From Salinigranum marinum (GTDB lineage: Archaea > Halobacteriota > Halobacteria > Halobacteriales > Haloferacaceae): 64,000 nt of DNA. The notes beneath the pieces were generated by a model. The model saw nothing but the letters and a program-made list of their open reading frames with translations. It searched no databases and had not been told where the DNA came from. The first letter of the stretch is position 1; each line of letters begins with the position of its first letter. Positions 33,960 through 37,083 of this stretch are shown here, one piece after another. The position numbers and the translations under genes were made by a program. The stretch lies in assembly GCF_024228675.1 (NCBI RefSeq), contig NZ_CP100461.1:1860001-1924000 (forward strand), given 5' to 3'.

Positions 33960-34676
33960 TCAGGCCAGCCGTGCGTCGGTCACCCTGATGCGTCCCCGCG
34001 TCCCCTCCCACTCGGTCTCGTACTCCAGTTCGATCCGCCGGGACATGTGCGGTCCGTTCGTGACGAACGTCTCGAACTCGCCGCCCTCGCCGAGCAGGTG
34101 GACGCCGTACCGTTCGTTGAGCTCACGGAGTTCGGCCAGCGCGTCCGCGTCGAGCGTCCGGCCGAGCCACGACTCGTCTAGGCCGGCCGCGGCGACCTGG
34201 AGGATGGTGATCTCGAAGCCGGCGTCGAGCATCTCGCGGGCGAGCGCCTCGGGGTCGCGCTGCCACAGCGGGGCGAACAGGTCGACCCCGAGCCGGTCGC
34301 ACATCGCGCGGATGCGGGAGGTCTGAAACTCGCTCTCGATGGCCCCGGCCGTGACGCCGGCGAGGTCGACCTCGTCACCGAGATCACGGAGCGCCGCTTC
34401 GAGCGGTTCGAGTTCGGCGTCGCCCTGTGCGGCCGAATCCGACGCCGCCGTCGCCCGGAGGTCGCCCGGGTCGACCTCGACGATCTCGATCCCGATGCTC
34501 TCGGCCGCGAGTCTCGCCAACCCCGTCTCGGGCACGTGGTACATGTACGAGTCCGAACCCTCGCCGGGGTGGACGGTGAGGAGTCGCGTCACGTTCAGCC
34601 CCGCTTCGAGCGCGCGGTACAGCGCCCACGAGGAGTCCTTGCCGCCGGAGAAGAGACTGACCCAGTCGTCCGTCAT
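33960..34676 (-). CDS. dph6: Diphthine-ammonia ligase (Dph6)
   Basis: 238 residues. The PP-loop ATPase motif SLFSGGKDSSWALY at the N-terminus and the C-terminal GEGGEFETFVTNGPHM are the signatures of the ATP pyrophosphatase-type Dph6/ATPBD4 family. It amidates diphthine to diphthamide on the His of elongation factor 2, the last step of that modification. Length matches the family. Two further PP-loop genes follow at 35029 and 36118. Confidence 0.9.
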   Translation of the reverse strand: MTDDWVSLFSGGKDSSWALYRALEAGLNVTRLLTVHPGEGSDSYMYHVPETGLARLAAESIGIEIVEVDPGDLRATAASDSAAQGDAELEPLEAALRDLGDEVDLAGVTAGAIESEFQTSRIRAMCDRLGVDLFAPLWQRDPEALAREMLDAGFEITILQVAAAGLDESWLGRTLDADALAELRELNERYGVHLLGEGGEFETFVTNGPHMSRRIELEYETEWEGTRGRIRVTDARLA

Positions 34677-34719: not shown

Positions 34720-34854
34720 CTACTCCTCGCCGCCGTCGGGGCGCGGCTCGACGTCGTACATCTCGGCGTACACTGACGCCCACGCGTTCGCCCGGCAGCG
34801 GCGGGGGACCGGACGGGGAGCGATCCGCGAGACGATCGAGAGGATTCGGGACAT
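34720..34854 (-). CDS. 44-residue protein with DtxR/SirR-like operator at its start
   Basis: Open frame from ATG 34854 to TAG 34720. The protein starts MSRILSIVSRIAPRPVPRRC and ends in AWASVYAEMYDVEPRPDGGEE. Third codon positions are almost all G or C and the C-terminus is acidic, as in real haloarchaeal genes. A TATA-like CTTTATG (34881-34887) sits 30 bp above the ATG and the palindrome GTTTAGG-TATG-CCTAAAC lies directly before it. It has a basic N-terminal amphipathic stretch, one Cys and no membrane segment. I do not recognise it. The operator implies repression by a metal-dependent DtxR/MntR/SirR-type protein, so the gene is likely induced by iron or manganese shortage. Confidence 0.7.
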   Translation of the reverse strand: MSRILSIVSRIAPRPVPRRCRANAWASVYAEMYDVEPRPDGGEE

Positions 34855-34872
34855 GTTTAGGTATGCCTAAAC
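34855..34872 (-). promoter_or_regulatory. DtxR/SirR-like operator
   Basis: Perfect inverted repeat GTTTAGG / CCTAAAC with a 4-base spacer (TATG). It resembles the TTAGG...CCTAA boxes bound by DtxR, IdeR and the haloarchaeal SirR/Idr proteins. It touches the ATG at 34854 and overlaps the expected transcription start (about 25 bp below the TATA-like box at 34881-34887), the classical place for repression. Confidence 0.7.
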
Positions 34873-35028
34873 CGTCGGAGCATAAAGCCGTGCCGGTCAG
34901 TGTCACGGAGAGCGAGCTGTGTTCGGTCGATACGACCGACACCGTGGTCGAACCGGGGGGCACGAAACGGGAGGCGTGGACTTGGGGACGTGGGGACGGC
35001 ACGGACGGACGCCGGCCGGGTCGGTCCG

Positions 35029-35979
35029 TTACATGTAGCCCAGGTCGCGGAGGCGTTCCATCAGGTTCTCCTTGTCCTGGGCGCGGCCGGCGCGTTCGGT
35101 CGTGTTATCGAGGTCCTGGACCCACGCAGGGCGGTCGCCGGACTTCTCGGAGCCGGTTTCGGTGCCGAGGGAGCGGAATCCCTCGAAGTACTTCTCCGGG
35201 ACTGGGACGTCCGCGAGGGCGACTCCCGCGGGAAGGTCTCCGCGGGACTGCGGGACGTGCCCCGCGGGGTACCCCGCTACCGAGTCGGGCACCACGAAGC
35301 TCCAGAACGCGTCCCAGAGGTCCGCCTCGGTGAACTGGAGGATGGGGTTGACGCGGTCGTGCGGCGGGTACTTTGCGGCGTCGTGCCGCGGCGAGAAGAA
35401 CGTCTCGTCCGCACGGGAGGCCTGTTCGTCCCAGCGGACGCCCGAGAAGACGCCGTCGAAGCCGTACTCGACGATGGCGTCGTTCAGCGCGACCGTTTTC
35501 AGCAGGTGGTTCCCCTCGAAGGAGTCGGGGTCGACGACGAGTGTCTCGGCGTCGTAGTCGATGCGGGCGAGTTCCCGGCGCGTGTCCTCGCTCAGTTCCG
35601 CGACCGGAACCTCGTCGCCGAACGCCCAGCCGCGGTCGAAGAAGTCCTCGTTGCGGGCGACGACGAGGTCGAGATCCCACGCGTCGACCCAGCGGTCGAC
35701 GAACGCGCGGACGTCGTCGAGCCCCTCGAAGTGTTCAATGTAGACGACGGGGGGGACCGGCACGCCGAGGTCGGCGGCGACCTCGCGGACGACGTACAGG
35801 ACGAGCGTCGAGTCCTTCCCGCCGGTCCACATCACGGCCGGCCGGTCGTACTGTTCGAGCGCGGTGCGGGAGACTTCGGCGGCCCGTTCGAGTTTGGCGT
35901 CGAGCGTGGGGTAGTCGGCGGCGCGCTGTCCCGCTCCGAGCGCGTAGTCGACGGAGACGTGAGCCAGAGCTGAGTTCAT
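35029..35979 (-). CDS. CysD-like PP-loop ATP pyrophosphatase, copy 1
   Basis: 316 residues from ATG 35979, with minus-strand ATCTATATCC centred 26 bp upstream. The PP-loop AVMWTGGKDSTLVLYVVREVA and the C-terminal end TTERAGRAQDKENLMERLRDLGYM resemble sulfate adenylyltransferase subunit CysD (which ends TSERQGRA...GYF) more than PAPS reductase, which ends in a catalytic Cys motif missing here. The usual partner CysN GTPase is not in view. Its neighbour at 36118 is a close paralogue. Possible roles are sulfate activation or another adenylation reaction. Confidence 0.75.
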   Translation of the reverse strand: MNSALAHVSVDYALGAGQRAADYPTLDAKLERAAEVSRTALEQYDRPAVMWTGGKDSTLVLYVVREVAADLGVPVPPVVYIEHFEGLDDVRAFVDRWVDAWDLDLVVARNEDFFDRGWAFGDEVPVAELSEDTRRELARIDYDAETLVVDPDSFEGNHLLKTVALNDAIVEYGFDGVFSGVRWDEQASRADETFFSPRHDAAKYPPHDRVNPILQFTEADLWDAFWSFVVPDSVAGYPAGHVPQSRGDLPAGVALADVPVPEKYFEGFRSLGTETGSEKSGDRPAWVQDLDNTTERAGRAQDKENLMERLRDLGYM

Positions 35980-36117
35980 CGGTGAGGGGACGCGCAGACC
36001 GGATATAGATATGAACGGACTACACGTCTCGCGGGAGCGGTAGGCGATACCTACCGCATCCACGTCCGTCGGTTCCGCCGACAGAAGAGGAGGGGCAAGA
36101 GGGGTACGGGACGTGCG

Positions 36118-37083
36118 TTACATGTAGCCCAGGTCGCGGAGGCGCTCCATGAGGTCCTCCTTGTCCTGGGCGCGGCCGGCGCGCTCGGTCGTGTTCGCCA
36201 TGTCCTGCAGCCACGCGGGCTCGTCGGCGGACTTGTCGGTCGAGACCTCACTTCCCAGGGAGCGGAAGCCGGCGAAGTACTTCGGCGAGACGGGGATGTC
36301 GGCCATCTCCAGTCCCTCCGGCAGGTCCTCGTCGTTCTGCGGGACGTGCCCGGCGGGGTACCCTTCCACGGTCTCGGGGACGACGAAGTTCCAGAAGGCG
36401 TCCCAGACGTCGGGTTCGGCGAACTGGAGGATGGGTTGGATCCGGTCGTGCGGCGGGTAGATGTCGGGGTCGTGCCGCGGCGAGAAGAACGTCTCGTCGG
36501 CGCGGGCCTCCTGTTCGTCCCAGCGGACGCCCGAGACGACGCCGTCGACGTCGTACTCCTCGAGCGCGTCGTTGAGCGCGACCGTCTTCAGCAGGTGGTT
36601 TCCGACATACGTGTCGAGCAGGAACGGGAAGGTGTCTTCCTCGTACTCCAGCAGGTTCCGGATGTGGTGCTGGTTGTGCTCCGACAGGGCCTCGACCGGG
36701 ATGTCGTCGCCGGGGGTGAGGCCGTTCTCGTCGACGTAGTCGCCGACGTCCGTGTTGCGCGCCCAGATGACTTCGAGATCCCACTCGTCGGCCCAGTGCT
36801 TGACGAAGTCGATGAGTTCGTCGAAGTGCTGGTAGTGGTCGATGAACACGACGGGCGGTACCTCGAGGTCGAAGCGGTCGGCGACCTCCTTGACGAAGTA
36901 CAGCGTCAGCGTCGAGTCCTTCCCACCGGTCCACATCACGACGGGGTTCTCGTACTGTTCGAGCCCCTGCTTCGTGACCTCGATGGCCTTCTCGATCTTG
37001 TGTTCGACGCTCGGGTAGTCCGCCGGTTCTTCGCCCTCACCGTCGGTGTAGTCGACGTCGAGGTAGTCGGGGAACGCTGACAT
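36118..37083 (-). CDS. CysD-like PP-loop ATP pyrophosphatase, copy 2
   Basis: 321 residues, tandem paralogue of the gene at 35029. The shared blocks are VMWTGGKDSTL, GNHLLKTVALNDA, GVRWDEQ with ADETFFSPRHD, and the CysD-like end ERAGRAQDKEDLMERLRDLGYM. In both, the GVRWDEQ segment differs from the sulfonucleotide-binding loop of PAPS reductases. The spacing between the copies is 138 bp, so they may be separate transcripts. The AT-rich promoter (37084-37105) directly precedes the ATG. Confidence 0.75.
   Translation of the reverse strand: MSAFPDYLDVDYTDGEGEEPADYPSVEHKIEKAIEVTKQGLEQYENPVVMWTGGKDSTLTLYFVKEVADRFDLEVPPVVFIDHYQHFDELIDFVKHWADEWDLEVIWARNTDVGDYVDENGLTPGDDIPVEALSEHNQHHIRNLLEYEEDTFPFLLDTYVGNHLLKTVALNDALEEYDVDGVVSGVRWDEQEARADETFFSPRHDPDIYPPHDRIQPILQFAEPDVWDAFWNFVVPETVEGYPAGHVPQNDEDLPEGLEMADIPVSPKYFAGFRSLGSEVSTDKSADEPAWLQDMANTTERAGRAQDKEDLMERLRDLGYM

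Follow-up and report, generated by a model that had tools for sequence, protein, structure and literature searches.

Metal-starvation-induced micro-proteins are known in a few bacteria. In Bacillus, the small proteins FbpA, FbpB and FbpC, which are controlled by Fur, belong to the iron-sparing response. In E. coli, the 42-aa protein MntS is repressed by the DtxR-family regulator MntR and is a proposed inhibitor of the exporter MntP (PMC4361602). Our literature search found no described archaeal metal-starvation-induced micro-protein.

Here we describe a 44-aa ORF of Salinigranum marinum, located in a 64,000-nt stretch of the chromosome (the window; coordinates below are positions within it), which, on the evidence of comparison among genomes, is probably a real gene and represents an undescribed haloarchaeal micro-protein family. 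MntS provides the closest functional analogy, since the two proteins are similar in size and too small to be enzymes, a DtxR-family metal repressor would control both (here judged from the operator), and action on a partner is proposed for each. MntS responds to manganese, whereas the regulon described here is of the iron type, and host, peptide motif and gene neighbourhood also differ; the likeness would be one of design and regulation, not of membership or claimed homology. FbpA, FbpB and FbpC are also short and induced by iron starvation, an induction that is predicted for the haloarchaeal micro-protein, but their regulator is Fur and not a DtxR-family protein. Among the haloarchaea, the Idr/SirR/TroR regulons (PMC11349517) involve the same kind of regulator gene, and in the genome studied here TTAGG-N4-CCTAA lies at iron-uptake and Fe-S genes. 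The zinc-finger micro-proteins of Haloferax (C(P)XCG; PMC11241148) are likewise haloarchaeal and shorter than 70 aa, but the present family has no C(P)XCG motif pair and carries another conserved motif. No earlier mention of the family was found in a literature search that had the principal haloarchaeal DtxR-regulon papers outside its reach.

A conserved reading frame directly behind an operator

The ORF (MSRILSIVSRIAPRPVPRRCRANAWASVYAEMYDVEPRPDGGEE; 34720..34854, minus strand) runs for 44 codons from an ATG at 34854-34852 to a TAG at 34722-34720, and its G+C content at codon positions 1, 2 and 3 is 0.68, 0.57 and 0.91, a strong third-position bias. It ends 43 nt upstream of dph6 (33960..34676, minus strand), which encodes diphthine-ammonia ligase (TIGR03679, 269 bits, 1.7e-80), and two PAPS-reductase/CysD-like genes lie upstream. 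An 18-bp dyad of the DtxR/SirR type, GTTTAGG-CATA-CCTAAAC (34855..34872), directly abuts the ATG, reading from 34872 to 34855 in the direction of the gene. This exact dyad is the sole match to TTAGG-N4-CCTAA in the window even when up to two mismatches are allowed, and has none itself. A TATA-like element, TTTATG (34881..34886, minus strand), read directly from the sequence and presumed to act as a promoter element, occupies the positions 27-32 nt before the first base of the start codon; the aligned sequence in three relatives is TTTTGT. The initial annotation had claimed a 44-residue frame with GC-biased third positions, a location between a diphthamide ligase and two CysD-like genes, an exact GTTTAGG-N4-CCTAAAC dyad right before the ATG and a TATA-like box 30 bp upstream, and each of these was found to be correct.

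At the TATA spacing of haloarchaeal promoters, the transcript is expected to start at or beside the ATG, implying that it is leaderless. The dyad fills the stretch between the TATA-like element and this start, so that a repressor bound there would block initiation, and the gene thus carries a TTAGG-N4-CCTAA operator that overlaps its promoter, as a member of a haloarchaeal DtxR-family (SirR/Idr/TroR) iron regulon would. The arms TTTAGG and CCTAAA are kept before the ATG in all four Salinigranum genomes, while the N4 spacer reads CATA, TAGG, TACA or CGGG, and fixed arms around a variable spacer are the pattern of a protein-bound palindrome.

Orthologues of the micro-protein were present in 4/4 Salinigranum genomes examined, at the equivalent position, flanked by dph6 on one side and a CysD-like gene on the other, with 70-86% amino-acid identity to the window ORF. 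Across all six pairs of these genomes pN/pS was 0.13-0.46, and codons 16-31 contained 0 nonsynonymous and 2-7 synonymous differences per pair, indicating that the frame is under purifying selection in Salinigranum.

The same operator at iron genes

When the exact box was counted in the 4.9-Mb Salinigranum genome, 7 sites were found, compared with 2 for the backward control pattern, and across 36 haloarchaeal genomes the box averaged ∼15 sites per genome and the control 1.9. The seven sites are distributed among a ferric-type ABC operon (2), the gene of a DUF5059/plastocyanin lipoprotein (3), sufS (1) and the micro-protein ORF (1). The first two flank the ABC transport operon together with the RGP-like gene next to it, and the sufS box is immediately 5′ of the gene, with sufU ∼3 kb beyond. 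Two clear DtxR-family regulators, of 237 and 144 aa, are encoded in the genome (PF01325 matches of 6e-19 and 8e-16, respectively). The micro-protein gene therefore shares its operator with iron genes (the ferric-type ABC operon and sufS) in a genome that encodes regulators of the corresponding family. As the signal, iron is favoured over manganese, solely from the genes that share the box.

Two other genes associated with these boxes were observed. Three consecutive TTAGG-N4-CCTAA boxes precede the gene of the 823-aa lipoprotein with DUF5059 and plastocyanin domains (L049:5400-7958), which suggests a strongly iron-repressed cell-surface copper protein. A 387-aa RGP-like protein is encoded between two iron boxes in two different haloarchaeal families (L048:8085-9313; L055:1679-2912, with PF03214 in the latter), its gene adjoining that of the solute-binding protein of the ferric-type ABC operon.

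A wider family of micro-proteins

A profile made from the four Salinigranum sequences gave weak matches in other haloarchaea that had the same core, two of them with the same box just upstream, and iterated profile searches from this starting point yielded 41 members, comprising the 4 Salinigranum proteins and 37 more distant ones from many haloarchaeal families. A separate search for relatives with the four-sequence alignment returned S. salinum only. Family members share the core PRxxRAxxWAxVYxxLFG followed by an acidic tail, matching the acidic end that had been noted in the window ORF, and R21, W25 and A26 are nearly invariant, as is Y29 in one alignment. The median net charge is +5 in the N-terminal part and -5 in the C-terminal part. 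Lengths were 29-74 aa (median 49) as called by a simple codon-usage script, whose start codons are approximate. The window ORF matched the family profile at 5.8e-14, being itself part of that profile. Several weak profile matches (L077, L078, L086, L088, L091 and similar) were judged by eye to be non-members, because they lacked the core motif or lay inside large frames, and L045 was discarded because its frame belongs to another gene.

The initial annotation had proposed that homologues and a conserved upstream box be sought in related genomes, and both were found, the exact box lying within 350 bp upstream in 26 of the 41 members, including the four from Salinigranum, and within 2.5 kb in 36. 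In five members, the available sequence showed no exact box within 2.5 kb; for two of them it extends only 1.5 kb, and in another of the five (G108) a box is located at -2.7 kb. Since the early rounds of the search involved judgement by eye, the fair test is the subset of 18 members newly added by the protein profile alone. A box lies within 350 bp in 14 of these 18; the chance expectation, taken from the box counts in the 36 genomes, is ∼0.0013 per locus. The subset spans nine genera, with near boxes in six, and members from the same genus cannot be counted as independent. Because the DNA box was not part of the protein query, its association with the family represents independent evidence.

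Of the 195 genomes of the order, 44 contained a member at E≤1e-4. The family is either patchy in distribution or often missed by the profile, and the true count is probably higher, because proteins this short readily escape detection. No member outside the order turned up in a phylum-wide sample, and a plasmid tblastn search with one relative as the query gave no match. Pfam, NCBIfam and PDB held no credible match for the window ORF or for 21 family members.

Gene neighbourhoods and the link to DtxR-type repressors

Adjacency to dph6 is kept within Salinigranum and not with other family members, and this neighbour is probably incidental. For the same reason, a function connected with dph6 or the CysD-like genes was rejected: the layout is seen only in Salinigranum, and so is uninformative about function. 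The tandem CysD/PAPS-reductase-like genes (35029-37083 in the window) score well below the CysD model cut-offs and probably have another ATP-pyrophosphatase function.

Two arrangements were seen among the family members. In the first, a box is followed by DUF7551, DUF7260, the micro-protein gene and a DtxR-type repressor gene (e.g., G086; the frames overlap in G016), and in the second the micro-protein gene is free-standing and preceded by a box of its own (G038, G051, G065, G107 and Salinigranum). A DtxR-type repressor gene is directly downstream in 18/41 members, and DUF7551 and/or DUF7260 genes are upstream in 12/41. The free-standing copies have varied neighbours, which argues for action in trans.

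The frequent pairing with a repressor gene raised the possibility of a dedicated partner role, in which the micro-protein would be produced alongside a haloarchaeal DtxR-type repressor and, as its adaptor or antirepressor, would modulate how it binds DNA. The 18 members whose next gene downstream encodes a short DtxR-type regulator, and the overlapping frames in G016, would fit such a role, and a helix with an acidic tail would suit a protein-protein or DNA-mimic function. However, 23/41 members are not adjacent to a DtxR-type gene, and at E≤1e-30 no repressor of the adjacent type is found in Salinigranum. Moreover, only ∼10/28 repressors of this type have the micro-protein upstream, while the other ∼18 have no recognisable small ORF there, yet most of them are preceded by a box. 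We therefore consider a dedicated repressor partner unlikely, and obligate companionship with one repressor type was rejected. The two layouts, together with the ∼10/28 figure, point instead to a separable module of the regulon.

Clusters of the first arrangement, in which a box precedes DUF7551, DUF7260, the micro-protein gene and a short DtxR-type repressor gene, were seen at L057:5800-7776 and, in similar form, at L093, L104 and L143. DUF7551 and DUF7260, domains of unknown function, appear from this arrangement to belong to the iron regulon, and neither was named in the papers found by our literature search. One genome (G240; L100 and L101) carries two copies of the micro-protein gene, and a DtxR-type repressor gene follows each of them. 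A second tiny ORF of 51-55 aa, with the motif PELSVCExxPGTxVFxExGNxDGWIA and its own iron box, lies downstream of the DtxR-type gene at L093:7498-7665 and L101:5851-6006 and is followed by a short conserved ORF.

Predicted structure and mode of action

AlphaFold2, run on a 25-sequence alignment, predicted one confident helix at residues 18-33 (mean pLDDT ∼91 for residues 21-30) and a weaker, lower-confidence helix at residues 4-11. The first of these, RRCRANAWASVYAEMY (codons 18-33; 34756..34803, minus strand), falls in the conserved core PRxxRAxxWAxVYxxLFG. Positions 18, 21, 22, 25, 26, 29, 32 and 33 (consensus R, R, A, W, A, Y, L and F) would share one side of an ideal helix, and this one-sided face looks like a docking surface.

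The reading that we favour, and regard as probable, is that the ORF encodes an iron-repressed, leaderless micro-protein that acts in trans in the iron-starvation response, with its conserved basic/aromatic helix docking on a partner. When iron is replete, a metal-loaded repressor of the SirR/TroR type would occupy the 18-bp dyad between the TATA-like element and the leaderless start, and transcription would be blocked. During iron (or manganese) shortage, the repressor would leave the dyad and the micro-protein would be made. Acting in trans, it would then dock on its partner through the R18/R21/W25/A26/Y29/L-F face of the helix, with a basic N-terminal half and an acidic tail that is presumably exposed, and would tune iron transport or functions that depend on iron, by analogy with MntS of E. 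coli or the Fur-controlled Fbp proteins. Comparison among genomes shows a conserved peptide, a conserved operator that overlaps the core promoter, the occurrence of this operator at genes for iron uptake and at Fe-S genes, and a repeated association of relatives with DtxR-type repressor genes. Regulation and family membership are well supported in this way, and the docking partner and the biochemical action are inferred. The short metal-starvation protein proposed in the initial annotation is likewise supported by the family, by the box at iron genes and by the 18/41 members beside DtxR-type repressors.

Alternatively, the protein could be an amphipathic peptide that associates with the membrane and acts as a modulator of an iron ABC transporter or exporter, in the way proposed for MntS and MntP. 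At their N-termini the Salinigranum members are extended by the stretch MSRILSIVSRI, whose hydrophobic moment is high (0.63) and within which the lower-confidence helix lies, and some relatives are near genes for solute-binding proteins. Most of the family lacks this extension, however, no transmembrane segment is apparent, and the conventional hydrophobic moment of the conserved core is low, making a membrane role doubtful. It is very improbable that the ORF is a cis-acting leader whose own translation controls the next gene, dph6 here and dtxR elsewhere; although the ORF lies just ahead of dph6 and many relatives are just upstream of a dtxR-type gene, the downstream gene varies by lineage while the peptide sequence is conserved, and the region contains no Rfam element. 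A chance ORF next to a genuine operator serving dph6, as might be suspected of so short a frame, since spurious frames abound in genomes of high G+C content, is already contradicted by conservation, given the purifying selection, the orthologues and the distant homologues with the same box, and can practically be dismissed.

Implications for the haloarchaeal iron response

Returning to the iron-repressed micro-protein acting in trans, a family that occurs across haloarchaea, usually has the same iron-type switch, and is often beside the gene of an iron-sensing repressor, makes it probable that a real but overlooked component of the response to iron shortage has been found. More tentatively, such a protein could, as a haloarchaea-wide micro-protein, form a built-in second layer of the iron response, with either DtxR-type repressors or the machinery of translation or transport as its docking partner, and would then be a protein counterpart of the bacterial iron-sparing regulators, for which our literature search found no archaeal precedent. 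The family has no match in the searched profile libraries, is found repeatedly in different haloarchaeal families with one recognisable operator, and in many cases shares a gene cluster with an iron-type repressor, so its role is directly testable by deletion in a tractable haloarchaeon that carries a member. These results suggest that the annotation of the haloarchaeal iron regulon may lack a conserved component.
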